Of a DNA stretch of 44,046 nucleotides, positions 1 through 20,787 are shown piece after piece. The position numbers and the translations under genes were made by a program. Source of the stretch: a virus. Under the pieces are notes generated by a model. The model searched no databases, was not told where the DNA came from, and was given only the letters and a program-made list of their open reading frames with translations. The stretch's first letter is position 1. Each line of letters opens with the position of its first letter. The stretch covers positions 1 through 44,046 of the IMG/VR virus record IMGVR_UViG_3300025892_000041; one strand, given 5' to 3'.

Positions 1-289
1 GATTATCAAACATTTTAAGTTCAGGTAATAAAGGATCATCTTCAGCAATAATTACAGTATGGTCAAACATATAATCCATCCATTCTTTAGGAGATTTACC
101 ATCAATTTTAGTTTTAGCTCTTTTCATTCCACCAAAATCCCAAACCCAATTTCTATGATCTAATTCACCTTCAAACCATACTTTAAAAGAAATCCCATAT
201 CCATGTAAAAATCTACAATGTGTGTCTTTAGCTTTCCATTGACGAAATACAGTAGAAAAACCATCAAAAACTTTTGTACTTACAAACAT
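1..289 (-). CDS. queD: QueD-like 6-carboxytetrahydropterin synthase (partial, 3' end outside window)
   Basis: The first 96 residues are visible; the gene runs off the left edge. The ATG is at 287-289. The residues F-R-Q-W, then T-H-C-R-F-L-H-G-Y and later W-V-W-D-F-G follow the pattern of the 6-pyruvoyl-tetrahydropterin synthase/QueD family, including the catalytic Cys just before the L-H-G motif and a later F-D-H-T. The family turns dihydroneopterin triphosphate into 6-carboxy-tetrahydropterin, an early step to preQ0. The usual H-G-H zinc pair reads H-G-Y here, and the first His is also not at the expected place. I believe this is a known phage-type variant but cannot verify it. It lies 2 bases after a thioredoxin gene and in the same run as queC and a DpdA-like gene, which supports a role in deazaguanine synthesis. 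GTP cyclohydrolase and QueE are not in the window and may lie further left. Confidence 0.82.
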   Translation of the reverse strand, partial: MFVSTKVFDGFSTVFRQWKAKDTHCRFLHGYGISFKVWFEGELDHRNWVWDFGGMKRAKTKIDGKSPKEWMDYMFDHTVIIAEDDPLLPELKMFDN

Positions 290-291
290 AT

Positions 292-549
292 TTAATTATT
301 GAACCAATTTAATACTTGTTCTTTAGTCCAACCACCAGCTGTAGTTCTTTTAATTTCATTACCATTTAAATCAGTTAATACTAAAAGTGGTATACTTTTA
401 ACTTGATATTGTTCTGTCATCGCAGCATCATATTCTGTGTTTATACTTTTTACATTTATACCTTCACGAGCAATTTGATCCATTACAGGTTTTAATACAC
501 TACAAGGTTCACACCATGGGGCATTAAAAAATAACATTCCTTTATTCAT
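292..549 (-). CDS. Thioredoxin/glutaredoxin-like small redox protein
   Basis: This 85-residue protein has the thioredoxin active site W-C-E-P-C (Cys13 and Cys16) after a short first strand, and the cis-proline loop S-I-P-L-L-V later. Length fits a minimal phage thioredoxin. It is cytoplasmic, with no signal peptide. In phages such proteins commonly serve as electron donors for ribonucleotide reductase, and this genome carries nrdA and nrdB at 18-21 kb. The link to RNR is inference. It sits between a small membrane protein gene and queD, with 2 bases before queD, so it is co-transcribed with the queD/queC group. Confidence 0.9.
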   Translation of the reverse strand: MNKGMLFFNAPWCEPCSVLKPVMDQIAREGINVKSINTEYDAAMTEQYQVKSIPLLVLTDLNGNEIKRTTAGGWTKEQVLNWFNN

Positions 550-567
550 AATTTTATTTAATTTAAT

Positions 568-765
568 TTATACTAATTCTTCTATTATACCTATTACTTC
601 ACTTAAGATAAGAAAAGTAACTGCCCAACCCAAACTAAAGAGAATAGCAGCATAACCTATTATTCTAACACCTGACTTTACAAAACTAATTTGTTGGTGA
701 AGTTTTGGATCTGGGATTTTGTCTATTTTGGTATCAGGATAATCCCATCTTTCTTTATTTGCCAT
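568..765 (-). CDS. Small membrane protein, unknown function
   Basis: This 65-residue protein has a hydrophilic N-terminal third with W-D-Y-P-D-T and a hydrophobic stretch at about residues 34-60 (G-Y-A-A-I-L-F-S-L-G-W-A-V-T-F-L-I-L), which fits one long or two short membrane spans. No enzymatic motif is visible. It follows another small membrane protein gene (770-928) by 4 bases and precedes the thioredoxin gene. I do not recognise a function. Confidence 0.72.
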   Translation of the reverse strand: MANKERWDYPDTKIDKIPDPKLHQQISFVKSGVRIIGYAAILFSLGWAVTFLILSEVIGIIEELV

Positions 766-769
766 ATTT

Positions 770-928
770 TTATTTATTTAATTCTGAAAATAATGTAGAT
801 GCTATATTCCATATTATAAATATAAAAAATAGTATTACTAAATTATTTAAATTTGCATCAATACTGTTTAATGCATCTACTACATTATTAATTCCATTAA
901 TTGTTACTTCATTTTTTATTTCAAACAT
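770..928 (-). CDS. Very small membrane protein (52 aa)
   Basis: An open frame of 52 codons plus TAA starts at ATG 926-928. The N-terminal half is polar and Asn-rich; residues 30-41 (L-V-I-L-F-F-I-F-I-I-W) form a clear membrane segment followed by a short tail. It sits between the tRNA gene and the 65-residue membrane protein, with 4 bases to the next ATG, so the spacing is typical of a real gene in this operon. Its function is unknown. It is short, so coding status rests on spacing and on the membrane segment. Confidence 0.6.
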   Translation of the reverse strand: MFEIKNEVTINGINNVVDALNSIDANLNNLVILFFIFIIWNIASTLFSELNK

Positions 929-942
929 ATTTTAATTTTTAG

Positions 943-1015
943 TTGTCCCTGGAGGGATCGAACCTCCACTCTTCTGCACCAAAAACAGACGTGTTGCCAG
1001 TTACACCAAAGGACA
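943..1015 (-). tRNA. tRNA-Gln, anticodon TTG
   Basis: Read on the minus strand, a full cloverleaf can be folded. The acceptor stem is TGTCCTT against AGGGACA with A as discriminator. The anticodon stem is TCTGT/GCAGA with the seven-base loop TTTTGGT, giving anticodon TTG. The T stem is GGAGG/CCTCC with TTCGATC in the loop. The U1-A72 start pair is typical of tRNA-Gln. CCA is not encoded. It lies between queC and a small membrane protein gene. Gln tRNA (anticodon TTG) is not a queuosine substrate, since those have GUN anticodons, so its position near the que genes is probably not functional coupling. Confidence 0.93.
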
Positions 1016-1021
1016 TTTATA

Positions 1022-1855
1022 TTAAGCTAAGTGTTCAGCTAGTAATTTTTCTACATGATTTTTAGCAACTTTATATTCTACTGGACCAGTTTCATCAGCA
1101 TATTCAGTAGGATCAGGTCTTCCTAATTTAATAAATGCTTCAATTCTTTCTACAGAAGAAGCTGATTTATAATCTGAATACCACTTCCAAGAATTAGTTT
1201 CGGGTCTGTAATAATGTTTAATAGGTTTGTAGGATGTATTAGTTCTTTTATAAACTTCATCAAAGTCTATTCCTAATCTTTCACACCAAAATAAACCATC
1301 TTCTAATATTCCAAACTTATCACCATATAGATAAGGTGTAATATATTTTACTTTTTCTGCTTCCCAATTACCTTGTTTAAAAGCTTCATAATCAGCATCC
1401 CTAAATTCTTGTCTACAATCAGGATAAATAGCATGATCACCAGCATGGATACCCATTGCAATATCTACTTCACAATTATTTTCATTAGCAATAGATAGTG
1501 CTACTGCTTGAATAATTGATGAAAACATTTTATTTCTATTAGGTACAACTGTATCTTTCATATTATCTTCTTCATAATGTCCTTCAGGAACATCTTCTCC
1601 TCCCTTAACTAAATTAGAATTTAATAAATCTACTAAACCCTCTAATTTAACTACTTGATATTTGACTTTATAACCATTTTTACCCAAATAATCTATTAAT
1701 TGTTGTGCTCTTTCTAATTCAACATCATGCTTTTGACCATAATCAAAACCAACTGCTGTTACTTGATATTTTTTTCCTAGTAAATATAATAATACTGTAC
1801 TTGAATCCATCCCACCTGATAGGGATAATACTGCTTGTTTTTTATTTATTGACAT
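1022..1855 (-). CDS. queC: 7-cyano-7-deazaguanine synthase QueC (zinc cysteines absent)
   Basis: This 277-residue protein opens with the PP-loop S-G-G-M-D-S-S (residues 13-19) of ATP-pyrophosphatases. It also has F-D-Y-G-Q-K-H, P-N-R-N and Y-P-D-C-R-Q-E-F, all signatures of QueC, which converts 7-carboxy-7-deazaguanine to preQ0 with ATP and ammonia. Oddly, the C-terminal zinc site of the family (a W-S-C then C-x-x-C-x-x-C pattern just before E-R-x-E-A-F) is replaced: the region reads T-N-T-S-Y-K and later D-Y-K-S-A-S-S-V-E-R-I-E-A-F, with no cysteines. The start overlaps the end of the DpdA-like gene by 10 bases, indicating translational coupling. Together with queD and the DpdA-like gene it suggests preQ0-type DNA modification. 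Confidence 0.93.
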   Translation of the reverse strand: MSINKKQAVLSLSGGMDSSTVLLYLLGKKYQVTAVGFDYGQKHDVELERAQQLIDYLGKNGYKVKYQVVKLEGLVDLLNSNLVKGGEDVPEGHYEEDNMKDTVVPNRNKMFSSIIQAVALSIANENNCEVDIAMGIHAGDHAIYPDCRQEFRDADYEAFKQGNWEAEKVKYITPYLYGDKFGILEDGLFWCERLGIDFDEVYKRTNTSYKPIKHYYRPETNSWKWYSDYKSASSVERIEAFIKLGRPDPTEYADETGPVEYKVAKNHVEKLLAEHLA

Positions 1856-2637
1856 TCTTTAAATTTTTTAAATTGTGTTAAATTGTGATTAATATTATAT
1901 AATATTTCTTGAGTCATAGGTGTTAAACCAACAGTATCTATTTTTGTAGATGATTTAGTATACAACCCATTAGAACTATATTTTACTCCCTCTAACCCAT
2001 GAATAATAGGATTTGAAGTATCTATAGATTCAATAAAAGGAAAATCATTATAATAAGCAAATTCCTGAGGTAAAGCACACCCTAATAAATGAACTCTATC
2101 AGTTTTTTCTATTAAACCTGATTTATACATTTTTGAAATAGTCATTATACGACCCATCATTTTACCTACTAAAGGGTTTGGGTGTGGAAATTCTTCAGCA
2201 TACCAATCTGCCCCATAACTAAATGCTATTTTTTTATAACCTTGTACTTTTAGTATGTTATAACATTGAAATGCTTCATGGTAATTTTGTGCTTGAACAA
2301 CTGCTACTTTAGTTACACCTTTTGGTAATTTTATGGACATCCACCTTTTAGCATTAACTAATGTTGCTGTTTGATCTTGCCAAACATCTGGTACTACAAA
2401 TTCATTAGGTTTTAATTCATTAATCCAATACATTAATCTGTCTGAATCATATGCTACACCTAATTCATGAAGTGAATTATCCATTATAATATATCTACCA
2501 TCCTTTTTAGCTTTATAAAAATGATTTTTGTAAATTTCATTTTGATCTAATAAATGAGGTAAACAATATTCATAATCATTAATATCATAACTCCTAGAAA
2601 GCATACTTATAGGTAATTCGTGACTAGTCTTTGGCAT
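1846..2637 (-). CDS. dpdA: DpdA-like TGT-fold transglycosylase (7-deazaguanine insertion into DNA)
   Basis: This 263-residue protein shows the ordered motifs of a tRNA-guanine-transglycosylase barrel: I-M-D-N-S (Asp53, like the TGT substrate-binding Asp of T-D-S-G), V-P-D-V-W-Q-D (82-88), V-V-Q-A-Q-N (113-118, like the TGT I-V-Q-G), H-L-L-G-C-A (183-188) and E-S-I-D-T-S (Asp206, candidate nucleophile). It is shorter than tRNA-directed TGT (about 370) and has no zinc-binding Cys cluster, as known for phage DpdA enzymes that exchange guanine in DNA for a deazaguanine. It is immediately followed by queC (10-base overlap). The ATG at 2635-2637 is preceded by AAATAAAGGAAT, a leader shared with other genes here, and by a host-type promoter at 2657-2686. 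A tRNA substrate cannot be excluded from sequence alone. Confidence 0.75.
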   Translation of the reverse strand: MPKTSHELPISMLSRSYDINDYEYCLPHLLDQNEIYKNHFYKAKKDGRYIIMDNSLHELGVAYDSDRLMYWINELKPNEFVVPDVWQDQTATLVNAKRWMSIKLPKGVTKVAVVQAQNYHEAFQCYNILKVQGYKKIAFSYGADWYAEEFPHPNPLVGKMMGRIMTISKMYKSGLIEKTDRVHLLGCALPQEFAYYNDFPFIESIDTSNPIIHGLEGVKYSSNGLYTKSSTKIDTVGLTPMTQEILYNINHNLTQFKKFKECQ

Positions 2638-2767
2638 ATTCCTTTATTTTAAATTTAATATACGAAAAAGATTGTTGCAAACCAAGTCCACCTAAAAGAA
2701 TAGTCCAAATATTTGGGTGCCAATGCTCACCACAAAGTCCAAGTGCGTGTTTAATAAATTCTATCAT
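2624..2767 (-). CDS. Small conserved-looking phage protein (47 aa)
   Basis: An open frame of 47 codons plus TAG starts at ATG 2765-2767, one base after the previous stop. The peptide has a compact Trp/His/Cys-rich core (L-G-L-C-G-E-H-W-H-P-N-I-W) followed by a hydrophobic Gly-Leu stretch and a basic tail, suggesting a membrane-associated peptide. Its last 14 bases overlap the dpdA-like gene, and the promoter of that gene lies within it. The non-random composition and tight spacing argue for a real gene. Its function is unknown. Confidence 0.6.
   Translation of the reverse strand: MIEFIKHALGLCGEHWHPNIWTILLGGLGLQQSFSYIKFKIKEYAKD
2657..2686 (-). promoter_or_regulatory. Host-type promoter upstream of the dpdA-like gene
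   Basis: On the minus strand CTTGG is followed after exactly 18 bases by GTATATTAA. This matches the recurrent element TTTGG-N18-GTATATT in this window and the Bacteroidota TTTG-N19-21-TAnnTTT pattern. The box ends 19 bases before the ATG of the dpdA-like gene. Confidence 0.65.
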
Positions 2768-2768
2768 A

Positions 2769-2966
2769 TTAGTCTTCTTCTACAAATTCTACATCTCCAT
2801 AATCATCAATTGGTTTATCTCTTACTAGATCCCAATCTGCATTATCTATAATTTCATCTCGGACATCTTCATCACCCGTTTTCCATAGTGCTAATTCTTC
2901 TTTTGTTAACACATATTCTTCCCATCTGTAATTACAGTAATTTACATTTCTTGTTAATTTTGCCAT
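2769..2966 (-). CDS. Small acidic protein, unknown function
   Basis: This 65-residue protein has an aromatic N-terminal part (N-Y-C-N-Y-R-W-E-E-Y) and an Asp/Glu-rich C-terminal half ending in E-F-V-E-E-D. Its ATG overlaps the stop of the UV endonuclease gene in a TAATG arrangement, so it is translationally coupled to it. No recognisable domain. Small acidic phage proteins often mimic DNA or bind host enzymes, but there is no direct evidence here. Confidence 0.72.
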   Translation of the reverse strand: MAKLTRNVNYCNYRWEEYVLTKEELALWKTGDEDVRDEIIDNADWDLVRDKPIDDYGDVEFVEED

Positions 2967-3862
2967 TATATTACTCTTTTAAAAATTGCTTGTTCTTTTA
3001 ATTTTGCCTCAATTACAATATCTGGTTTTAAACCATAAGTATTGATTTTTTCATAAATTAAATCAGAATGAGCTTGAGGACGAATTGACTCATCTAATTT
3101 TTCTTTTCTGCGACTTTCTGAATAATGACAACATTGTGCGATTCCTTTAGGCCATGTAACGGAAGCAGTTTCTAATGCCTCTTTTTCAGTTAAACCCCCA
3201 GTATTAAATTTATGATGAAAATAATCAAATGTAATTGGAATCCCAATAGCTTGATAAACAAAATCAAATAAATCAGCTACCGAATATTCATTTGGACTAT
3301 CATCATTTTCAACAACTAAACGTTTTTTAGTATCTTCATTTAATAATTCAAAATTTTTACAAAAACGTTTTAATGTTTTTTCTTTATCACCATAAGCTCC
3401 TCCTACATGAATATTAATTTTGTTATAGGGTGAAGGATCAAATCCCATCATATTAAATTGTTCGCTATGAAAATTTAATTCTCTAACTGTTTTTTCTACA
3501 ACTTTTTGATTAGGTGAAGCTAAACAATTATAAGGGCCAGGGTGCATTGTAAGTCGTTGACCTGCATCTGTTGCAATTTTACCAATTTCAAGCATTATGG
3601 ATGCAATTTCATCATAATCCTTTAGATCTTTGACATTATATTCATCTGACCAAGGGAATATTTGGGATGATAATCTAAATAACTTAATACCCATTTCATT
3701 ATTCCATTGAATATATGTTTTAAGATCCTTAACATTGAGTAATGCAAGATCAGAGACATAATCTTCTCCATTAGCATCATATGTTTTTCGACGCATAGTT
3801 CGATTCGTAGTAATTTTATTTTTGCTAAGTGCTGTGTTTATACACGCGTATCCTAAATTCAT
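2966..3862 (-). CDS. uvsE: UV damage endonuclease (UvdE/UvsE family)
   Basis: This 298-residue protein begins with L-G-Y-A-C-I-N and T-T-N-R-T, hallmarks of the UVDE family, a TIM-barrel nuclease that nicks 5' of UV lesions and other distortions. Metal-ligand motifs appear in order: M-H-P-G (His103), N-I-H-V-G-G, V-V-E-N-D-D, F-D-Y-F-H-H-K and H-Y-S-E-S-R. Length is normal for bacterial UvsE. Its ATG overlaps the preceding stop by 4 bases (ATGA). Its job here is presumably direct repair of sunlight damage to the phage DNA, comparable to T4 DenV but from an unrelated family. Confidence 0.94.
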   Translation of the reverse strand: MNLGYACINTALSKNKITTNRTMRRKTYDANGEDYVSDLALLNVKDLKTYIQWNNEMGIKLFRLSSQIFPWSDEYNVKDLKDYDEIASIMLEIGKIATDAGQRLTMHPGPYNCLASPNQKVVEKTVRELNFHSEQFNMMGFDPSPYNKINIHVGGAYGDKEKTLKRFCKNFELLNEDTKKRLVVENDDSPNEYSVADLFDFVYQAIGIPITFDYFHHKFNTGGLTEKEALETASVTWPKGIAQCCHYSESRRKEKLDESIRPQAHSDLIYEKINTYGLKPDIVIEAKLKEQAIFKRVI

Positions 3863-10584: not shown

Positions 10585-11193
10585 TTAAATAATATCTTTT
10601 GACTCAATAAGAGTATAAGTAAATGAATTACCCCAAAGATCTTTTGATTGGTTACATATTTTCATAAATACAGCAAAATCATCATTTGATGATATTACTT
10701 GACAACCTGCTGACCATTTATCTACTCTTGTTGATTTACCTCCTGTTTTAGCAGTTGCTCTATGAATATTAATTCCAAAAATACCTTTATCAATATCTTC
10801 TTCTAAACAATCATAAATTCCATCTTGATTATCATCACGATAAACTTCTAAAGGTTTTTGTTGTCTTAATGCTTCATATTTTCCTTGGTGTAAACCAATT
10901 TTATGAGAACTTCTATATTGCCCTGGTTTTAAAATTGCTACACCATTAGGATTAAGTAAATTTTCTACCCAATGAGTTCCTGGGTCTGTAGTACATTTAA
11001 AGCAGTGAAATTTCCATTCACTATCTAATTTATAAGATAAAGTAATACAATCATCAAATGCATTTGTAACTCTATTTTTTGTTTCTGAATTTCTAACTCC
11101 TACAATGTTAAGATTAAGATCTCCTGACTTAAAATATCTATAACCTTTTTTAGCCATAGCATTTTCTATTTGTTCTCTTGTATAACAATTCAT
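10585..11193 (-). CDS. L,D-transpeptidase-like peptidoglycan enzyme, candidate endolysin
   Basis: This 202-residue protein contains G-I-F-G-I-N-I-H-R (His144) followed 16 residues later by W-S-A-G-C-Q-V-I (Cys164). This spacing and order match the His...(S/T)-x-G-C catalytic motif of YkuD-like L,D-transpeptidases, as in W-S-A-G-C-Q variants found in Bacteroidota and their phages. A D-N-Q-D-G-I-Y-D loop (121-128) could bind calcium. No signal peptide is present, so release would depend on a holin. It directly follows a small lipoprotein gene and lies near a holin-like gene, fitting an endolysin role. Whether it cuts or crosslinks peptidoglycan cannot be told from sequence. Confidence 0.65.
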   Translation of the reverse strand: MNCYTREQIENAMAKKGYRYFKSGDLNLNIVGVRNSETKNRVTNAFDDCITLSYKLDSEWKFHCFKCTTDPGTHWVENLLNPNGVAILKPGQYRSSHKIGLHQGKYEALRQQKPLEVYRDDNQDGIYDCLEEDIDKGIFGINIHRATAKTGGKSTRVDKWSAGCQVISSNDDFAVFMKICNQSKDLWGNSFTYTLIESKDII

Positions 11194-11718: not shown

Positions 11719-11934
11719 TTATTTTTTTGCAAATTTTTCAGCCCCTGCTATTCCAAAACAACCTATTACAACCCATGTAAATGAATCATATATTGTTTCA
11801 TTGATTACTAAATCTTTGCCTGTGTATCCAGTTAATAAATCTAATAAAGCAAATAATACCATTACTAAAAAAGCTATAAAACCTACTACAGTTTTTTCAT
11901 TCCACTCATTATCATTTTTGAATATTGACCACAT
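11719..11934 (-). CDS. Holin-like two-span membrane protein
   Basis: A 71-residue protein with a short charged N-terminus (N-D-N-E-W-N-E-K), span one at about 15-37 (V-V-G-F-I-A-F-L-V-M-V-L-F-A-L-L), a loop T-G-Y-T-G-K-D-L, span two at about 50-66 (F-T-W-V-V-I-G-C-F-G-I-A) and a basic end A-E-K-F-A-K-K. This is the usual size and topology of class II phage holins. It is close upstream of the lipoprotein and transpeptidase-like genes, so a holin / spanin / endolysin set is likely. Confidence 0.68.
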   Translation of the reverse strand: MWSIFKNDNEWNEKTVVGFIAFLVMVLFALLDLLTGYTGKDLVINETIYDSFTWVVIGCFGIAGAEKFAKK

Positions 11935-11940
11935 AATTTT

Positions 11941-14900
11941 TTAATTTTTAATTATTCTTTTACTATATCTTTTATCTTCATGTATTATTGTCATATTATA
12001 AATACCTGAAGGGAAATTATTTATATCAATTCTATTAGAAGCATTATTAGATTTAATTAATAATTTACCAGTCATATCATAAAGTTCAACTTCTATTTTT
12101 AATCTAGTTTCTATATGAATTAATCCTCTTGTTGGGTTGGGATAAACAACTATACCTAAAGCAGAAACATCAGGAATATTAGTTGGCCAACCTAATTGAC
12201 AATAATCATACATTGATTGGCATGTAGGATCCCAATCATTTGTACAACAATAATCATCTACATCTATTACCCAGGCATAACATTCATCATTTAACCAATA
12301 AGGTATTCCAGGTCCTCCATAACAACCAGCATCATATAAACATGCTGTTGAATCTGAAGTATTTGCTAAAGGATCATAATTGAATGCTGAAACATCAGTA
12401 CAACCTGTTATAGGTAAAATACAAGTTCCATTATCTGTGTTTGCTAATATGTCATAATTTAGAGCTGTAGAATCAGTACATCCAAATATTACTGGTGTAC
12501 AAGATCCATTATCAGTATTTGCTAAAGGATTATAGTTAAATGCTGTTGCATCCATACAACCATAAATGTAAGGAATACAACTACCATCATCACTATTTGC
12601 TAAAGGATCATAATTAAATTGTGTAGGATCAGTACAACCATAAACGTATGGTAGACATGAACCATCATTTACATTAGCAAGTGGGTTAAAATTAAATGCT
12701 GTTGAATCAGTACAACCTAATACCGTAGCTATACATGAACCATCATCAGTATTTGCTAATGAATTATAATTAATTGCAGTAGAATCTGTGCATCCTAAAA
12801 TTATTGCTATACAAGAATTATCATTTGTATTTGCTAGAGGATTGTAATTTAAAGCAGTTGAATCTGTACAGCCATATACAAATGGAATACAGGATCCATT
12901 ATCAGTGTTTGCTAAAGGATTATAATTGAATTGGGTATTATCAGTACAACCATAAATATAAGGTATACAAGATCCATTATCTGTATTTGCTAAAAGATCA
13001 TAATTGTATTGAGTTGGATCTATACACCCATATACAAAAGGAATACATGAACCATCATCTGTATTTGCTAATGGGTCAAAATTAAATTGTGTTGCATCAG
13101 TACAACCATAAATATAAGGTATACAACTTCCATCATTAGTATTAGCAAGTGGATTATAATTAAAATAATTTGGATCTGTGCAACCATAAATAATTCCTAA
13201 ACATGATCCATCTTCAGTATTTGCTAATGGATTGTAGTTAATTGCTGATGTATCAGTACAACCTAAAACAACAGGAATACAACTTCCATTACTTGTATTT
13301 GCTAATGGGTCATAGTTAAATGCTGTTGAATCCATACAACCATATACAAAGGGAATACAACTCCCATTATCTGTATTTGCTGAAGAGTTAAAATTAAATT
13401 GTGTTGGATCTGTACAACCAAACACAACAGGTACACAAGACCCATTGTCTGTATTAGCTAAAGGATCATAGTTAAATGCTAAAGGATCAGTACAACCATA
13501 AATTGGTAAAATACATGTTCCATTATCATCTGTTGCTGTGATATCAAAATTTAAAGCAATAGGATTAGTACAACCAGGTATTTCTAATTCATCACAAATA
13601 CCATCTCCATCTGTATCTAATAAACATACATTATTACAATCATAATATTGTGCTGGATATTGGCATCCATTATTAACTGTTGCTGTTATATCAAAATTAC
13701 AGGCAACTGTATCCATACAACCAATATAATAACACGAACCATCATCAAAATTAGCGAATGAATTATAATTATCTGCTGTTGAATCAGTACAACCATTAAT
13801 AAAAGGTATACATGAACCATCATCTACATTTGCTAATGGGTTGTAATTTATTGCAAATACATTCATACAACCTAAAATGTAAGGTATACATGAACCATCA
13901 TCTACATTAGCTGTAGAATCATAATTAAATGCTAATGAATCCATACAACCTAATATTGTAGGAATACAATAATCACCACAAAATGGCACTGCAGAATATG
14001 TTACCCAAAATGGTGAGCTAAAAGATTGTAATGCACCTTGACCATTATTAGCAAAAGGATTAACACCTTCATGCATTAATACAACACCATCTGCATTTGT
14101 TAGTTTAAATGAATTATGCCAAGTTTGAAATTGTACTTCTTCTGGTGGTTGTTGTGGCCCACCTACTTCAAAATAATATACGTTAACAGGAATACCTGCG
14201 TCTAATACTAATAAAAATGAATCTTGATAACTACCAGGACCCATTGTAAATGTACCAAAATTAATTCCATTTTGATAAACACCAATATATGAATTACCCC
14301 AACCATCACCACCAGCATCACCAATCCATAATTGATATTGACAATCAGGTACTATATCATTAATAGTTGCATTAGGATTATAATTAAAAGCAGAAGAATC
14401 AGTACAACCATAAATGTGTAAATTAACACATGAACCATCGTCAATTGTAGCTAATGGGTTATATTCTTGATAATCATCATCCATACAACCATATATTGGA
14501 GGAGATGATAAACAAGGTACACCAAATTGTTGTCCTGAATATAATACATTTCCAAATCCAGGATTATCCATCCACCATATAGTATCTCCTAAACAATCAT
14601 ATATAACAACCATCCCATCTAATGAACCACCTGAAGTAGTTCCTGCCATACCATCACCATATGTATCTGTTATAATTAATTCAAATCCTGCTGTTTGGTC
14701 TACACAAAAATTATAAGTATAAGTTTGACCTATATCATTAAAATTATATGCTCCTGGAAGTTCTTCTTGTAATACACCATAACCACCACTTGTAATAGAC
14801 CAACCAGTTTCACTTGGCCAGTTATCAAATGTAATTTCCATTGTAATTTGATAAGTTGTGTTTGTATCACAAGTTGTACCAGCACATGAACCATCATCAA

Positions 14901-15720
14901 ATGTGGCCCATGGGTTATAAGTTGGTTGTGTTGGATCTGTACATCCTGCTATACAAGAAGTAGGTGTGTAAGCCATAGTATCTGAAAAAGTACTATCTGC
15001 AAATTCCACCATACCATAATGTTCTACTGACCAGTTAGGAGGCATTTGCCCATTACCTGCATATACTGCAAAATCTTGTTGATTAGGACCAAGTCCGTAT
15101 TGAAAAGGACCTACACCATTTTCATTCCAATACCAAAATCTAACTGGATTACAGTTACCATTTGATATATCATTTTGCCAAAAGAATTGAACTAATGTTT
15201 GTCCTGTTGGTAGACAAGTTTGTTGTACAGTATCAGACAAAAGTCCACCACAAGCTGGATAGGTACAAGGACCAGGAAAGTATGCTGTTGAGTCATAATT
15301 TAATCCATTAGGATCCAAACAACCAAATGTAGGAGGAGCACAAGGTGCAACAGTTAATGTTTGTACTAAACTATCTCCAAAGTTTCCTGCTACATACATT
15401 AATGTATCTTGACACGAATTACTAATCATAAACCAACCATCAGTTCCACCCCATTGAGATGAACCTAAACCATCACCAAAAGAATCATATATACCAGCAA
15501 TTATTGTACCACCAAGTTGAACAATAGTATCATACATTGTATTTGGTAGCATGTTGCTATCGTTTTCTATAATAATAGGTGATCCACCAGGAGGTGTAAT
15601 ATTCCAACTTGTTTCAGATGGGTAATCATCTGTCATCAATTGGATATGGATCCAAGAACCCTGTGTATAACCTAAAAAAGGTATTAAAAATGTTAATAAT
15701 AATAACTGTAATTTTTTCAT
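11941..15720 (-). CDS. Giant secreted Cys-rich repeat protein with type IX secretion sorting domain
   Basis: This 1259-residue protein has a signal peptide (M-K-K-L-Q-L-L-L-L-T-F-L-I-P-F-L-G-Y-T-Q). Two copies of a secreted domain with Y/W-P-S-E-T-x-W-x-I-T and D-x-Y/F-G-D-G follow at about 25-125 and 285-390. About 24 copies of a Cys-rich unit G-C-T-D-x-T-A-F-N-Y-N-P-L-A-N come next, 16 of them in an unbroken tandem. The last 80 residues (V-V-Y-P-N-P-T-R-G, V-E-L-Y-D-M-T-G-K-L-L, G-I-Y-N-M-T-I, K-R-I-I-K-N) match the type A sorting tail of Bacteroidota type IX secretion. The host machine would thus export it to the cell surface or medium. It stands in the envelope/lysis block between a thioredoxin-fold exported protein and the holin-like gene. 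A virion role is unlikely because of the sorting tail; an adhesin, shield or host-surface modifier is possible. Confidence 0.9.
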   Translation of the reverse strand: MKKLQLLLLTFLIPFLGYTQGSWIHIQLMTDDYPSETSWNITPPGGSPIIIENDSNMLPNTMYDTIVQLGGTIIAGIYDSFGDGLGSSQWGGTDGWFMISNSCQDTLMYVAGNFGDSLVQTLTVAPCAPPTFGCLDPNGLNYDSTAYFPGPCTYPACGGLLSDTVQQTCLPTGQTLVQFFWQNDISNGNCNPVRFWYWNENGVGPFQYGLGPNQQDFAVYAGNGQMPPNWSVEHYGMVEFADSTFSDTMAYTPTSCIAGCTDPTQPTYNPWATFDDGSCAGTTCDTNTTYQITMEITFDNWPSETGWSITSGGYGVLQEELPGAYNFNDIGQTYTYNFCVDQTAGFELIITDTYGDGMAGTTSGGSLDGMVVIYDCLGDTIWWMDNPGFGNVLYSGQQFGVPCLSSPPIYGCMDDDYQEYNPLATIDDGSCVNLHIYGCTDSSAFNYNPNATINDIVPDCQYQLWIGDAGGDGWGNSYIGVYQNGINFGTFTMGPGSYQDSFLLVLDAGIPVNVYYFEVGGPQQPPEEVQFQTWHNSFKLTNADGVVLMHEGVNPFANNGQGALQSFSSPFWVTYSAVPFCGDYCIPTILGCMDSLAFNYDSTANVDDGSCIPYILGCMNVFAINYNPLANVDDGSCIPFINGCTDSTADNYNSFANFDDGSCYYIGCMDTVACNFDITATVNNGCQYPAQYYDCNNVCLLDTDGDGICDELEIPGCTNPIALNFDITATDDNGTCILPIYGCTDPLAFNYDPLANTDNGSCVPVVFGCTDPTQFNFNSSANTDNGSCIPFVYGCMDSTAFNYDPLANTSNGSCIPVVLGCTDTSAINYNPLANTEDGSCLGIIYGCTDPNYFNYNPLANTNDGSCIPYIYGCTDATQFNFDPLANTDDGSCIPFVYGCIDPTQYNYDLLANTDNGSCIPYIYGCTDNTQFNYNPLANTDNGSCIPFVYGCTDSTALNYNPLANTNDNSCIAIILGCTDSTAINYNSLANTDDGSCIATVLGCTDSTAFNFNPLANVNDGSCLPYVYGCTDPTQFNYDPLANSDDGSCIPYIYGCMDATAFNYNPLANTDNGSCTPVIFGCTDSTALNYDILANTDNGTCILPITGCTDVSAFNYDPLANTSDSTACLYDAGCYGGPGIPYWLNDECYAWVIDVDDYCCTNDWDPTCQSMYDYCQLGWPTNIPDVSALGIVVYPNPTRGLIHIETRLKIEVELYDMTGKLLIKSNNASNRIDINNFPSGIYNMTIIHEDKRYSKRIIKN
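12340..13575 (-). repeat. Tandem array of about sixteen 78-bp units inside the secreted protein gene
   Basis: Each unit encodes 26 residues on the plan G-C-T-D-x-x-x-x-N-Y-N-P-L-A-N-T-D-D-G-S-C followed by a short link such as I-P-Y-I-Y. Units differ at DNA level by synonymous and conservative changes, so this is protein-level repetition kept by selection rather than a very recent copy event. Eight less regular units lie outside the array. Confidence 0.92.
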
Positions 15721-15730
15721 TGTTTAATTT

Positions 15731-16111
15731 TTAAAAATCTGACATTATAATTTCATCAATCTTCTCTTGTACATCCTTTTTAGTTGCTTCCATTTGCATC
15801 ATAATATTTGCTTGAAATCGTCCAACTTCTTCTCCATCACTGTATATTACAATTGTAGGAACAACTACTATTTTATATTTACTTGCTGCTTCCGTATCAG
15901 TTTGAATATCAATAAACTTTTTAGAACAGTCATTTAATTTATCAACCCAGGTTACCTTATTAATTTCATTAAACCCAGCATTAAATTGTACTACACATAA
16001 ACCCTCATCTTCACAAGGTGATTGACCATTAGCTGTGTTTGAAACTAATATAAGGAGTAATATTAATAAATATCCTCCAAACATTTTTATCCATGTATAA
16101 TCTTTTTTCAT
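15731..16111 (-). CDS. Exported thioredoxin-fold protein without redox cysteines
   Basis: I start at ATG 16109-16111 (M-K-K-D-Y-T-W), one base after the previous stop; an upstream GTG would overlap the neighbour. The 126-residue product has a membrane/signal segment at about 12-28 (Y-L-L-I-L-L-L-I-L-V-S) and then a thioredoxin-like fold: V-V-Q-F-N-A-G-F-N at the usual active-site strand and V-V-V-P-T-I-V-I-Y with the cis-proline. The W-C-x-x-C pair is replaced by F-N-A-G-F-N, so it cannot act as a dithiol oxidoreductase. A structural or chaperone role outside the cytoplasm is likely. It precedes the giant secreted protein by 10 bases. Confidence 0.78.
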   Translation of the reverse strand: MKKDYTWIKMFGGYLLILLLILVSNTANGQSPCEDEGLCVVQFNAGFNEINKVTWVDKLNDCSKKFIDIQTDTEAASKYKIVVVPTIVIYSDGEEVGRFQANIMMQMEATKKDVQEKIDEIIMSDF

Positions 16112-16112
16112 A

Positions 16113-16457
16113 TTATTGGTTTCTACGTTTATCGATTTTTCCACCTTTTATATATCTTATACTATCCCAGGAACCATCTTCATAATCTAACCTCTCTAAA
16201 ATATATACTATATCTTTTTTAATGTCTGTTATATCATTTTGAGTATTTCTAATTATAATATACATGCTATCTTGATATGCTATATCTTCTTTAGTAGGAA
16301 CCCACATTTCTTCTTTATTATTATCTTTAATTTCTAATACTTTTATTTCTTCTTTTGACCAAACATTAGCAAGTACTATTGTACTAAATAATAAAGCAAC
16401 TATAATCATTATAGTTGTAGGTGATGTTAAACAAATATTTTTATTCCAAAATTTCAT
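16113..16457 (-). CDS. Single-span membrane protein with extracytoplasmic helical domain
   Basis: A 114-residue protein with a span at about 14-33 (T-T-I-M-I-I-V-A-L-L-F-S-T-I-V-L-A) followed by a charged, helical part (K-E-E-I-K-V-L-E-I-K-D-N-N-K-E-E, D-I-T-D-I-K-K-D-I-V-Y-I-L-E-R-L). The layout, short inside, one span, long coiled coil outside, resembles an i-spanin, and it lies next to a second protein of the same layout. Its function is not established. Confidence 0.7.
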   Translation of the reverse strand: MKFWNKNICLTSPTTIMIIVALLFSTIVLANVWSKEEIKVLEIKDNNKEEMWVPTKEDIAYQDSMYIIIRNTQNDITDIKKDIVYILERLDYEDGSWDSIRYIKGGKIDKRRNQ

Positions 16458-16461
16458 AAAA

Positions 16462-16743
16462 TTATCTACCGTATAATTTATCTTCTATTTTTTCTAGTGT
16501 TTTTTTTATTTCTTCTACATCTTTTTGAGTATCCATAATAGTTTGTCTTACTAATTGGTCTTTCATATCAAATTCCATTCTAGTAATAGCTGGAGGTGGA
16601 GGAACTGGTAGTTCTTTTGCTTCAGCTATATCTGCTTGTAATGCAAACCACATACCTACAATTGTAGCTATTAAGGCTGCTATACCTCCTAATGTTTTTA
16701 AACTTACCTGTACGTTAGTATCTTCACTTAATTCTTTTGCCAT
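16462..16743 (-). CDS. Single-span membrane protein with proline hinge and coiled coil
   Basis: A 93-residue protein with a span at about 17-36 (L-G-G-I-A-A-L-I-A-T-I-V-G-M-W-F-A-L), then a P-V-P-P-P-P hinge and a C-terminal coiled coil (M-D-T-Q-K-D-V-E-E-I-K-K-T-L-E-K-I-E-D-K-L). I recognise this layout from marine T4-like phages, where it is unnamed. It could be an inner-membrane spanin partner for the lipoprotein at 11200-11337, but that is inference from topology. Confidence 0.75.
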   Translation of the reverse strand: MAKELSEDTNVQVSLKTLGGIAALIATIVGMWFALQADIAEAKELPVPPPPAITRMEFDMKDQLVRQTIMDTQKDVEEIKKTLEKIEDKLYGR

Positions 16744-16746
16744 TTT

Positions 16747-17829
16747 TTAAAATATTATGTAATTCATCCCAACGGAAAAATCATGCCATTCTCTATTCCA
16801 ATATTTATTATACTTACCTTCTATAAATACTCCTAAATTTTTATTATATTTGTACCCAAAAATTAATCCTCCAGAATAATCCATCCATTGTTCACCATCA
16901 TTAAAATTATGATATGAAAATTCACTACCATCATTATAATGCCATGGCATCAAATTACCCCATGAATGTAACCAAAATGATTTTGTGTAGTAGTAGTAAT
17001 CAAATCCAACAACTAATGAATGTTGTATAGTATTGTCTTGTTGATCTCTTTTTTTCTCAGTGTAATCAGCTAATGCCTGTGGAATAACGACTGCTTCCCA
17101 AACTTCATTATTTTCTGCTACTATATTTCCTTGTGGGTTTAGGTATTGAATAATATCATGTGAAATAAAATTAACATTATAACCTTCTTCTAATGCTAAA
17201 TAAGTATAATGTAAATTACCATTTGATAACTTCCATTCTTCTAATGGATCATACCCATAAGGTTCTGATAAGCGTTGTACAGCCCCTATATTAATGGATA
17301 ATTTTCCTTTTCCTAGTTCACCTGGTAGACTTTCTAATGCTTTTACTTGGTATCTGTATCTTTGTGATGCTTCAAAATATTCAATATCAGCAAATCCATC
17401 TTGTAAGTATTCTACTTTAGCAATCCAACTATCATTAACATATCTTAAAAAATGGTGTTGGTCTAAATATTCAATTCCTTCTTGTCTTTTATAATCAACT
17501 TCAAATAAAAATTCAAATCCTTTAACTTTACCAATAGTAGCAGCATCCGAAAATGAGTTTTCTTGACCATTTTTAAATGCCTCTTTGGGTTCATAGCCCA
17601 TTCTAGCTATTTTTCTAACTCCTAATGCTAATGAATAATCAAATGGGGTTTCTATTGTGGTTGTTGTTAAACCATCTGTAACTGAGTAAATATCAACATT
17701 AGAAAGAGAAGTTCCGCCATTTGCAGCTGCATAAAATGTAGAAAATTTAAATATTTTCTTTAATTCATTTTGAGAATAAGAATTTAAAGAAAAAAGTATA
17801 AAAAATAATAGTAATATTTTTCTCATCAT
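16747..17829 (-). CDS. Outer-membrane beta-barrel-like protein (360 aa)
   Basis: A signal peptide (M-M-R-K-I-L-L-L-F-F-I-L-F-S-L-N-S-Y-S) is followed by many amphipathic strands rich in Tyr/Trp (R-Y-R-Y-Q-V, S-L-V-V-G-F-D-Y-Y-Y-Y, G-G-L-I-F-G-Y-K-Y, F-S-V-G-M-N-Y-I-I-F) and a terminal Phe. This pattern indicates an outer-membrane barrel of perhaps 12-16 strands. Its start overlaps the preceding stop by one base (TAATG), so it is coupled to the 72-residue gene. It is the second phage-encoded outer-membrane protein of the window. Function is unknown; candidates are receptor blocking or envelope remodelling. Confidence 0.8.
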   Translation of the reverse strand: MMRKILLLFFILFSLNSYSQNELKKIFKFSTFYAAANGGTSLSNVDIYSVTDGLTTTTIETPFDYSLALGVRKIARMGYEPKEAFKNGQENSFSDAATIGKVKGFEFLFEVDYKRQEGIEYLDQHHFLRYVNDSWIAKVEYLQDGFADIEYFEASQRYRYQVKALESLPGELGKGKLSINIGAVQRLSEPYGYDPLEEWKLSNGNLHYTYLALEEGYNVNFISHDIIQYLNPQGNIVAENNEVWEAVVIPQALADYTEKKRDQQDNTIQHSLVVGFDYYYYTKSFWLHSWGNLMPWHYNDGSEFSYHNFNDGEQWMDYSGGLIFGYKYNKNLGVFIEGKYNKYWNREWHDFSVGMNYIIF

Positions 17830-18047
17830 TATTTCTTTTTAGGTCTACCTCTTCTTTTTTTGCCTTTAGAAGCATCAATAACATCTTTAGATTGAGCTGC
17901 TACATTTTTTAAAGCTTTTTTTACATCTTTAAATTCATTAGCCATTTCTTTAGCTCTATCCTTAACTTCATCATAAATTTCAACAGCTTTTTCGTCTAGG
18001 GTTGTCTTACCTAAAATCCAGTTCCAAAATTGTGTTAACTTTTCCAT
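17829..18047 (-). CDS. Small helical protein with basic AT-hook-like tail
   Basis: A 72-residue protein with an N-terminal W-N-W segment, a long amphipathic helix (K-D-R-A-K-E-M-A-N-E-F-K-D-V-K-K-A-L) and a tail K-K-R-R-G-R-P-K-K-K that carries the AT-hook core G-R-P flanked by basic residues. An AT-hook would fit binding to this AT-rich DNA. It opens the envelope block after nrdA, with a late-type element directly in front (18054-18069). Its function is not established. Confidence 0.75.
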   Translation of the reverse strand: MEKLTQFWNWILGKTTLDEKAVEIYDEVKDRAKEMANEFKDVKKALKNVAAQSKDVIDASKGKKRRGRPKKK

Positions 18048-18080: not shown

Positions 18081-19790
18081 CTACCCGTCACAAGAAACAC
18101 ATTCAGCTGTGCGAGATCCTAAATCTCCTTTAATTACTGAATCAGTTCTTAAATAATATAGTGTTTTTATGCCTAATTTCCATGCTTCCATATGAACTTG
18201 ATTAATCCATTTAGGGGAATCTGTAGGAGGGAAACAAAGGTTTAATGATTGTGTTTGATCTATATACTTTTGACGTATTGCTGCTTGTCTAACTAATTCT
18301 AATTGATTAATTTCAGCAAATGTTAAAAATACATCTTTATCTTCTTCAGATAATATATCAGAAGGAATATTAATAACAGAACCATCATCAGATAAAATTT
18401 GATCCCAAACTTTATTTGTATTTTTTCCTTTTTTTATAAGTAATTTTTCTAATTCTGGATTTTTAACAATAAATGTTCCTTTAGCTCCATTAAATGTATA
18501 AACATTTGCAGGTTGTGGTTCAATACCAGCAGAACATCCTGCTATTCTAGAATTTGATACTGTCGGTGCTATAGCTAAAACATGAGTATTTCTCATACCA
18601 GTTCCTTTACACCACAAAGGTTCTCCATATTCAACTGCTAATTGTCTACTTGCTGCTTCAGCTTCATTTCTTATTTTAGACATTATAGTATGAGTCCATG
18701 CAGTTGAAGCTATTGAATTAAAGGGTAAATTTTTCTTTTGTAAAAAAGTATGCCAACCCATTATTCCTAAACCTAATGCTCTACCCTTTTTGGCATGTTT
18801 ATGAGTACGTTTCATTGCTTCTTTACCATTAGTTTTTTCAATAAATTCTTCCATTATTCCATCTAAAAAATAAGTTGCAGTTTCAACTACATCTGTATCT
18901 TTCCATTCATCATATTTTGCTAAATTTAGAGAGCTTAAACAACAAATAAATGAATGCTCTTCATCTGTATGTAATGTAATTTCAGAACATATGTTAGTCA
19001 TAGAAACATGAAGATTATTCATCATGTAAGCTAAAGGATTGTTTTTATTAACATTATCCTCAAACATAATATAAGGTTCACCTGTTTCTACACGTGATTT
19101 AAGTATTTCTAACCATAAAGACATAGATTCAGCATCACGATCATTTAACTTACGCATAAACGCATCATCAACAACAACACATTGGTGGAGATTTAAACAT
19201 TGTCTATTAGGATCACCTTTAGGTCTTCTGATTTGTAAAAATTCTTCAATATCTGGGTGGTTAATATTACAATTAACTGATGCTGCTCCTCTTCTTACAT
19301 TACCTTGATTAGTAGCAATAATTGTTGAGTCATATATTTTACACCAAGGTACTACACCTTCGCTTTTTCCATTTCCTCTAATTTCTGTTCCCCTAGCTCT
19401 TATTCTATCAACACTAATTCCAACTCCACCTCCAGATGAAGTTAATTTCATTAATTCCGCATTTGTTAATCCAATTCCTCTAATTGAATCTGGGGTATCA
19501 ATTCCAAAGCATGAGATTGGTAATCCTCTATCTGTTCCTGTATTTGAAATTACAGGTGAAGCTAAACCAATCCAACCATTCCAAATATATTTGAAAAATT
19601 TAGCTGCTAAATCTGGTCTTTTAAGACGATCTGCTGCGGCATTTGCTACCCTTCTATATGCTTTTTTAGGAGTTTCTCCTGGAATTAAATATCCTTTAGA
19701 TATAGTAGATAGTGCTACCTCATTCATCCATTCAGGGTAATCTCTCCCTTTTTCCCAACTTGTATAATCTGCTATTAAATTATTATCCAT
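18081..19790 (-). CDS. nrdA: Ribonucleoside-diphosphate reductase, large subunit (class Ia)
   Basis: This 569-residue protein has the catalytic residues of class I alpha subunits: P-I-S-C (Cys94), N-I-C-S-E (Asn266, Cys268 as thiyl radical, Glu270), C-C-L-S-S-L-N-L (Cys283/284), the radical-transfer pair Y-Y (545-546) and a C-terminal C-V-S-C (564, 567) for reduction by thioredoxin. It is shorter than E. coli NrdA (761) and T4 NrdA (754): the N-terminal ATP-cone that mediates dATP inhibition is missing, as in many marine phages, so the enzyme should escape shutdown by dATP. It follows nrdB by 10 bases. It supplies deoxynucleotides for replication. Confidence 0.96.
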   Translation of the reverse strand: MDNNLIADYTSWEKGRDYPEWMNEVALSTISKGYLIPGETPKKAYRRVANAAADRLKRPDLAAKFFKYIWNGWIGLASPVISNTGTDRGLPISCFGIDTPDSIRGIGLTNAELMKLTSSGGGVGISVDRIRARGTEIRGNGKSEGVVPWCKIYDSTIIATNQGNVRRGAASVNCNINHPDIEEFLQIRRPKGDPNRQCLNLHQCVVVDDAFMRKLNDRDAESMSLWLEILKSRVETGEPYIMFEDNVNKNNPLAYMMNNLHVSMTNICSEITLHTDEEHSFICCLSSLNLAKYDEWKDTDVVETATYFLDGIMEEFIEKTNGKEAMKRTHKHAKKGRALGLGIMGWHTFLQKKNLPFNSIASTAWTHTIMSKIRNEAEAASRQLAVEYGEPLWCKGTGMRNTHVLAIAPTVSNSRIAGCSAGIEPQPANVYTFNGAKGTFIVKNPELEKLLIKKGKNTNKVWDQILSDDGSVINIPSDILSEEDKDVFLTFAEINQLELVRQAAIRQKYIDQTQSLNLCFPPTDSPKWINQVHMEAWKLGIKTLYYLRTDSVIKGDLGSRTAECVSCDG

Positions 19791-19800
19791 TATTTATTGT

Positions 19801-20787
19801 TTAAAATATTGATCCTGCATCCCAGTCCTGTGTTCCCTTACTATAATTTGTTACTCTATTTGCGAAAAAATCAGTATGTTGTTTTCCTGCTGATAGATGA
19901 TCAAACCATTTCATTCTTTCAATAGCTGTAGGGTCAATACCATTAACTATAGGTCTATAACCTAAATCTCCCATTTTAGTATTTACTCTATGTTTAATAA
20001 AAGATATTAAATCTTCCTTACTACATCCTTCTAAATCACCTTGTTCATATACTTTTTCAATAAAGTCTACTTCTAATTTTAATGAAAGTAAAGCAGCTTC
20101 ATTAATAGCTGCTTCTAATTCTGGTGTTTTTAACTCTGGTTTTTCTTCTAATAAAGTTCTAAATAACCAACACCCAGCATCTGAATGCATAGATTCATCT
20201 CTAATTGACCATTCAACTATTTGTCCTACTCCTTTTAGTTTATTTCTTAATTTAAATGATAATAAAACAGCAAAAGAACTAAATAAATTTACACCTTCAG
20301 TAAAAGCAGAAAAGATAGCTAGGGATTTTGCTCTTTCATGCCAATCTACTTTATTACCAAAACTAGCTGCATTTTCAGTTAATGCTTCTATTTTAGCCAT
20401 TGTAGCTTCATCTTCTAAAAATTCACTAAAATCATCTAATCCTAACTCTTCATTTAATAAAGAATATGCTTCAGCATGAATTGTTTCCATAGCACCAAAA
20501 ACAGTTGCCATAGCAATAATTTCAGGTTTTCTAAACCACTTTGTAACTAATCCCGTCCAATAATCATTTACTACAGTTTCAGTTTGAGCAAAACCTTTTA
20601 AAATAGAACCAATAATATTCTTTTCAGTTTCTGTTAAATTTTGTTTCCAATCATTAATATCACTCATCATAGGAACTTCTGTATGAATCCAATGTGCTTG
20701 TTGTTGTTTTAACCAATAATCAAACGCTACTGGGTATTCAAAGGGTTTGTATACTATCCTTTCTTTTGTTATGTCTTTTTTTGCCAT
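19801..20787 (-). CDS. nrdB: Ribonucleoside-diphosphate reductase, small subunit (class Ia)
   Basis: This 328-residue protein has the di-iron ligands and radical tyrosine of R2: Glu70 (Q-T-E-T-V-V-N-D-Y-W), Glu101 and His104 in M-E-T-I-H-A-E-A-Y-S with Tyr108 at the radical position, Glu164 (F-T-E-G-V-N-L-F), Glu198 and His201 (R-D-E-S-M-H). The first ligand is Glu where E. coli has Asp84. The C-terminal peptide D-A-G-S-I-F would dock to NrdA. It lies between the helicase and nrdA with short gaps. Confidence 0.96.
   Translation of the reverse strand: MAKKDITKERIVYKPFEYPVAFDYWLKQQQAHWIHTEVPMMSDINDWKQNLTETEKNIIGSILKGFAQTETVVNDYWTGLVTKWFRKPEIIAMATVFGAMETIHAEAYSLLNEELGLDDFSEFLEDEATMAKIEALTENAASFGNKVDWHERAKSLAIFSAFTEGVNLFSSFAVLLSFKLRNKLKGVGQIVEWSIRDESMHSDAGCWLFRTLLEEKPELKTPELEAAINEAALLSLKLEVDFIEKVYEQGDLEGCSKEDLISFIKHRVNTKMGDLGYRPIVNGIDPTAIERMKWFDHLSAGKQHTDFFANRVTNYSKGTQDWDAGSIF

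Follow-up and report, generated by a model that had tools for sequence, protein, structure and literature searches.

The viral record IMGVR_UViG_3300025892_000041 of IMG/VR, 44,046 nucleotides long and analyzed in full as the window, carries a gene (P0001, positions 11,941 to 15,720) whose product, hereafter called the cargo, appears to be addressed to the type IX secretion system (T9SS) of the bacterial host. The open reading frame (ORF) occupies exactly this interval on the minus strand, and the plus strand across the same interval is full of stops. The predicted protein begins with a hydrophobic, signal-peptide-like segment (MKKLQLLLLTFLIPFLGYTQ), continues with β-rich N-terminal domains, a series of "GCTDSTAFNYNPLANTDDGSC" repeats and a Cys-rich block, and ends in a sorting tail. 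The repeats are built on a GC-x-D unit of 26 residues, with tandem arrays of 78-nt period at 12359-13503 and 13732-13968. No Pfam family matched the repeat domain, and a Pfam search recognized no binding domain in the window's cargo. Among relatives, the number of repeats ranges from 6 to 31 and the length of the protein varies widely, from 601 to 1465 aa, while a signal-peptide-like start, judged by a hydrophobicity rule rather than by SignalP, is present in all 67 relatives that have their own start.

The C-terminal 68 residues match the T9SS sorting-domain profile TIGR04183 with 52 bits (cut-off 23, E 5e-14) and PF18962 with 48.4 bits (cut-off 27, E 1.2e-12), and this is the only TIGR04183 match in the whole record. 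The tail contains the motifs VVYPNPTRG...VELYDMTGK...SGIYNMTI...SKRIIKN. A preliminary description of this DNA had proposed a 1259-residue protein with a signal peptide and a T9SS tail at this position, to be checked against TIGR04183 and its relatives; the proposal holds, with matches far above the curated cut-offs and with the strand defined as minus. In an AlphaFold2 model of residues 60-1259, built from 26 aligned relatives, the tail forms a sandwich of seven strands with a predicted local distance difference test (pLDDT) score of about 70-82. T9SS tails are seven-stranded sandwiches, and cargo with a type A tail is carried off by PorV (PMC10994853). Foldseek superposed the modeled tail on 8glk_D (target TM-score 0.80, root-mean-square deviation 2.2, 33% identity), which is the tail of NucA (75 residues) captured within the F. 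johnsoniae T9SS translocon, and the same chain came first when the PDB was searched with the tail by phmmer (E 3.8e-6).

The resemblance to NucA, a type A cargo of F. johnsoniae, extends to the signal peptide, the seven-stranded tail, the YPNP, DLxGK and GxY motifs and a lysine close to the C-terminus. The K of SKRIIK aligns with the KK pair of NucA and is a candidate for the near-invariant C-terminal lysine of T9SS tails, a K being found at this position in 56 of the 78 type A tails counted. Unlike NucA, the cargo is phage-encoded and belongs to a cassette on the lysis side with barrel, coil and thioredoxin-like partners. In eight diverged pairs of tails the ratio of nonsynonymous to synonymous substitution rates (dN/dS) is 0.07-0.22, which indicates purifying selection. 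The last 400 bases of the gene (11941-12340) are 88-100% identical among the window and the related loci L003 and L029, whereas the adjoining repeats drop to 50-80% against L029; the downstream gene also differs strongly. Because a near-identical end adjoins diverged repeats, these 400 bases may be a recombination unit, possibly exchanged as a block.

The cargo gene is part of an unbroken minus-strand run that extends from nrdB/nrdA (18081-20787) to an endolysin gene (Table 1), and only 10 and 6 bases separate it from the adjacent genes. By eye, signal-peptide-like starts were seen in the genes at 15731, 16747 and 6710, and membrane segments in those at 16462, 16113 and 11719; no lipobox was seen in the cassette proteins of the window. 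A peptidoglycan-binding amidase lies near the place equivalent to the endolysin in the related locus L195. The rest of the window consists of a T4-like tail module and replication genes, and nucleotide genes also flank the cargo; the window is itself a fragment, as close relatives reach 96-171 kb. Stray host DNA or a chimeric contig was rejected as a source, given these flanking tail, replication and nucleotide genes and the recurrence of the block in many viral contigs. The earlier placement of the gene in a block of envelope proteins is confirmed by these exported or membrane-bound neighbors, as called by eye, and its assignment to the phage program by the minus-strand run and by the recurrence of its partners across dozens of viral contigs. 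What the preliminary description overlooked is a strictly co-inherited cassette of four genes.

Table 1. Features of the cargo locus and its surroundings in the window
Feature	Position	Strand	Basis
T9SS cargo gene P0001 (gene S), 1259 aa	11941..15720	minus	ORF, Pfam/NCBIfam profiles, repeat search
Putative signal peptide of the cargo, ~20 codons, MKKLQLLLLTFLIPFLGYTQ	15661..15720	minus	sequence and hydrophobicity
GCxD-x-x-A-x-NY repeat region, period 78 nt, interrupted	12359..13968	minus	tandem-repeat search
Type A T9SS sorting tail, cargo residues 1192-1259	11944..12147	minus	TIGR04183 57 bits on DNA, 52 bits on protein; fold match 8glk_D
Gene T, exported thioredoxin-fold protein without CxxC	15731..16144	minus	profile search
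Small protein with one membrane segment, in few relatives only	16113..16457	minus	by eye and locus comparison
Gene C, 93 aa, N-terminal membrane segment then coiled region	16462..16743	minus	alignment, 72% mean identity
Gene B, 360-aa outer-membrane β-barrel-like protein with signal peptide	16747..17829	minus	AlphaFold2/Foldseek, alignment
Small gene, one border of the empty site in cassette-less relatives	17829..18047	minus	locus comparison
71-aa membrane protein, holin-like (putative)	11719..11934	minus	sequence comparison
Endolysin	10585..11193	minus	PHROG 33083 'endolysin', E 5.6e-17

The cassette is composed of B (outer-membrane barrel-like), C (one transmembrane segment followed by a coil), T (thioredoxin-like) and S (the T9SS cargo). 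When IMG/VR was scanned with the barrel (16747-17829), at least 559 viral contigs were found to carry it. With the cargo as query, 35 loci were recovered from viral contigs of up to 171 kb, and their comparison showed recurring neighbors in varying gene orders. Among loci counted once per barrel sequence and flanked by more than 6 kb on either side, 39 of 39 hold all four genes, and every barrel locus without a detected cargo had 6 kb or less of flank on at least one side. The gene order is BCTS in 20 loci, SBCT in 13 and CTSB in 5, which are cyclic permutations of one another (the rotated orders are exemplified by L125, L147 and L137), and STCB in one; a holin-like gene is within reach in 19 of the 39.

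Absence is also shared: among 16 nrdB-related viral contigs, all of them possibly fragments, 12 lack the barrel, and the same 12 lack any TIGR04183 match. The site, between nrdA and the lysis genes, is cleanly empty in L085, where homologues of the genes at 17829 and 11719 are adjacent and are followed by an endolysin-like gene, called by eye for its resemblance to the amidase of L195. Since the co-occurrence is complete, the absence joint and the site empty in L085, this comparison indicates that the cassette is accessory, inherited on an all-or-none basis, and outside the basic lysis set.

Gene B has a signal-peptide-like start in 88 of 89 sequences and a mean column identity of 64%, and its AlphaFold2 model (pLDDT 70) consists of antiparallel strands. 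With this model, Foldseek found the NanC, OmpG, FapF and FadL barrels (E 5e-7 to 1e-4) at low TM-scores and, in BFVD, A0A516LKJ4, a distantly related viral model (E 1e-21); sequence searches of Pfam and the PDB gave no match. An identity as PorV or SprF has no sequence support, and the fold search was unspecific, with FadL as one of many barrels and a model of modest confidence. Queries of barrel and coil from several lineages gave no match among the sequenced phages of INPHARED. Gene C has no spanin match in PHROG, despite its layout. Gene T acquires its thioredoxin fold from a profile search of the PDB (E 1e-8 to 2vim); the CGPC loop is missing and CxxC occurs in none of 81 relatives, so that, judged by sequence, it is a redox-dead thioredoxin kept by the phages.

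The cargo does not always end in the same tail. Among 73 distinct loci with a cargo, 55 end in the type A tail and 18 in another, shorter one (consensus among phage cargo VTDLLGRP.K..KNKLLLYIYSDGSV.K..IK), which no Pfam or NCBIfam model recognizes. On the barrel tree the tail type switches at least four times. The bodies of L175 and of L176/L184 are 72-95% identical per 80-column block right up to the tail, and the tails are unrelated, which amounts to a tail exchange.

Both tails have counterparts in the candidate hosts. Among 60 genomes from the order of the metagenome-assembled genome G077, 23 contain the second tail, in as many as 48 copies per genome. Where regions were sampled, the tail terminates proteins of about 100 to 690 residues, most of them with signal-peptide starts. 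The genomes with the second tail also hold 22-147 type A tails, and a confinement of the two tails to separate hosts was rejected on this ground. This second tail, which is that of L181, L013 and others and was also noted at loci L214-L233, reads LIKITDVLGRe.k..KN.pLFYIYDDGTVEKKIIIE on secreted proteins of marine Flavobacteriales. The second tail is likely to be a second sorting signal of the secreted proteins of these bacteria.

SprA and type A tails are present in all 26 tested genomes of the order of G077. The cassette phages form a large, uncultured marine group whose hosts are probably Bacteroidota. A single-sequence scan of 85,000 bacterial genomes with the whole cargo found no homologue, and an alignment scan of bacterial genomes found three loci, two of which (L195 and L197) have phage-type genes around the cassette, the third (L196) being a 3.8-kb contig that holds the cassette. 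The cargo matches 108 of 396 genomes of this order, mostly in its repeats, and GCxD repeats occur there in ORFs of hundreds to more than 7000 residues. Of these 396 genomes, 2 contain the barrel, both times beside phage-type genes. Because the repeats are common to the hosts and the barrel is nearly restricted to phages, the cargo looks like host-type material placed in a phage-specific kit. A second large GCxD-repeat protein, without a signal peptide, is encoded in some phages (L013:1200-5882, L018:1279-5895), where it precedes the cargo by about 4 kb on the upstream side, and is possibly a virion protein with the repeat in common; a TIGR04183 match below threshold falls inside it in contig G006.

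The closest isolate is phage immuto (MW353175), which infects Flavobacterium sp. LMO8 and matches 24 ORFs of the window, with identities of 73% for NrdA, 65% for the recombinase and 54% for the sheath. Just past nrdAB in immuto come genes for a C-type lectin and a further protein, both exported, and then immuto26A_15. Annotated only as 'cohesin domain-containing protein', the product of this gene joins a cohesin domain (PF00963, 36.7 bits) and a type A tail (TIGR04183, 44.8 bits) to a signal-peptide-like start. The two phages share the backbone and, at the same place after nrdAB, a protein with a signal peptide and a T9SS tail; they differ in the passenger, a cohesin instead of GCxD repeats, and in its exported neighbors, and no barrel homologue was detected in immuto. 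Dockerin-like stretches were seen by eye in the two proteins that precede immuto26A_15, in which Pfam reported no dockerin; together with the lectin and the T9SS-tailed cohesin in this region (L198:10527-15868), they could form a cohesin-dockerin surface complex. At positions 1-3862 of the window, QueD-, QueC- and DpdA-like genes resemble the 7-deazaguanine DNA modification set of immuto, and the protein encoded at 2966-3862 resembles, by eye, a UV-damage endonuclease.

The interpretation preferred here, with a probability of about 0.62, is that the cargo is exported by the host T9SS, acts within a four-gene envelope cassette beside the lysis genes of marine Bacteroidota myoviruses, and coats the dying cell. 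Export through the host T9SS is a strong inference. Late in infection, a timing suggested by the continuation of the gene run into the endolysin, the cargo would cross the inner membrane by Sec through its signal peptide, and PorV would then carry it through SprA by the C-terminal tail. Its destination would be the cell surface or the exterior, and there its long stalk of repeats would coat the dying cell and its debris; the barrel and the periplasmic partners may hold the cargo, help its export or prepare the envelope. The likeliest benefit, a speculative one, is the masking of the surface, by which neither progeny nor competing phages would adsorb to a cell already doomed or to its debris. 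The reading of the preliminary description, a T9SS-addressed protein of the phage program, is kept and extended, as relatives show purifying selection on the tail and exchange of one host tail type for another. The effects that it suggested, a block of superinfection, the sticking together of debris or hosts and the shielding of receptors, are candidate functions. A broader proposal, in which the cassette is a strictly co-inherited surface-display system that builds a structure at the host surface, takes the host T9SS for the stalk, supplies its own barrel and periplasmic parts, and exchanges tails to suit the host, is more tentative and falls somewhat short of even odds.

Some observations weigh against a coat delivered by the T9SS. 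The mean pLDDT of the cargo model is 58.6, with low confidence outside the tail; the tail of the window is too similar to those of L003 and L029, with too few changes, for a dN/dS of its own; and immuto, the closest isolate, infects a Flavobacterium yet has no detected barrel. In addition, the lysis-gene neighborhood fits equally well a cassette that acts in lysis by disrupting the outer membrane. The cargo is directly beside the holin-like gene and the endolysin, and gene C has the layout of i-spanins, with one transmembrane segment and a coil. The same site in the cassette-less locus L101 (12997-13775) holds a small gene of similar layout, which matches the Rz-like PHROG 739 only at E 0.03 and overlaps a gene with a lipobox-like start, an arrangement reminiscent of a spanin pair, although PHROG support is weak; moreover, phage CsgG/CsgF pores have been proposed to time lysis in marine myophages (PMC9004378). 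However, the cassette-less loci L084 and L085 have endolysin-like genes and no recognizable spanins at the site, so the cassette is dispensable for lysis. Mere membrane breakage would not need a conserved and swapped secretion tail or a stalk of 6-31 repeats, and the missing spanin match of gene C points the same way. A lytic role is considered unlikely.

An exported stalk might instead serve as an adhesin by which infected or lysed cells are bound to neighbors or to particles and progeny emerge amid new hosts. The GCxD repeats in large ORFs of the host order (108/396 genomes) and the variable length of the cargo would suit such a function, as would the exported C-type lectin that immuto encodes two genes upstream of its T9SS-tailed cohesin; the window's cargo has no recognized binding domain, however, and phage curli, for which the similar idea of 'sibling capture' was put forward, showed no clumping in culture (PMC9004378). 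Adhesion is likewise considered unlikely. The abundance of the repeats and of both tail types in host genomes also brings to mind a domesticated host gene, either a Flavobacteriales moron with a vestigial tail or a virion-associated protein whose end resembles a sorting tail. A vestige would hardly be under purifying selection and be exchanged for the other host type rather than lost, nor would it be strictly co-inherited with three phage-specific partners while always keeping its signal peptide; with the barrel present in only two host-order genomes, and there beside phage-type genes, this origin is very improbable. The preferred interpretation remains export by the host T9SS and coating of the dying cell.

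Phage-encoded T9SS cargo had been called rarely discussed in the preliminary description, which is fair, although precedents exist. Cryophage has genes for a T9SS-cargo endoglucanase, GH39 and PA14 in variable islands (Bellas et al. 2020, PMC7468147). These are likewise phage genes with type A tails and presumed use of the host exporter, and differ from the cargo described here, which is one orthologous repeat protein tied to three partners across many phages. A crAss-like phage encodes a BACON ORF with a T9SS domain (de Jonge et al. 2019, PMC6949934), also a phage protein bearing a sorting domain; it is a single case from gut phages, with BACON repeats near head genes. Pelagimyophages and phage Melnitz carry csgG/csgF pores with lysis-related synteny and a proposed part in lysis timing (PMC9004378). 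By description, they are similar as marine myophages with outer-membrane export parts and a proposed link to lysis, but they bring a pore, whereas the cassette relies on the host T9SS. Among the open-licence papers searched, only the Cryophage and crAss-like cases turned up as phage T9SS cargo, and none described a conserved cassette, tail exchange or the second tail. The novelty here is thus the conserved T9SS-cargo cassette in abundant marine phages together with tail exchange, the precedents being variable or isolated genes.

Phages are usually thought to reach the cell exterior only by lysis. Here, an abundant group of marine phages appears to exploit its host's motor-driven exporter to deliver its own protein to the surface before or during lysis, which makes viral use of type IX secretion open to experiment, with a tractable cultured relative, immuto. 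The work also offers candidates for superinfection control in ecologically important bacteria. The analysis has also exposed the second tail in marine Flavobacteriales; if the surface-display reading is true, this tail (LIKITDVLGR...KN.LFYIYDDGTVEKKIIIE) would be an unrecognized class of T9SS-like sorting signal.

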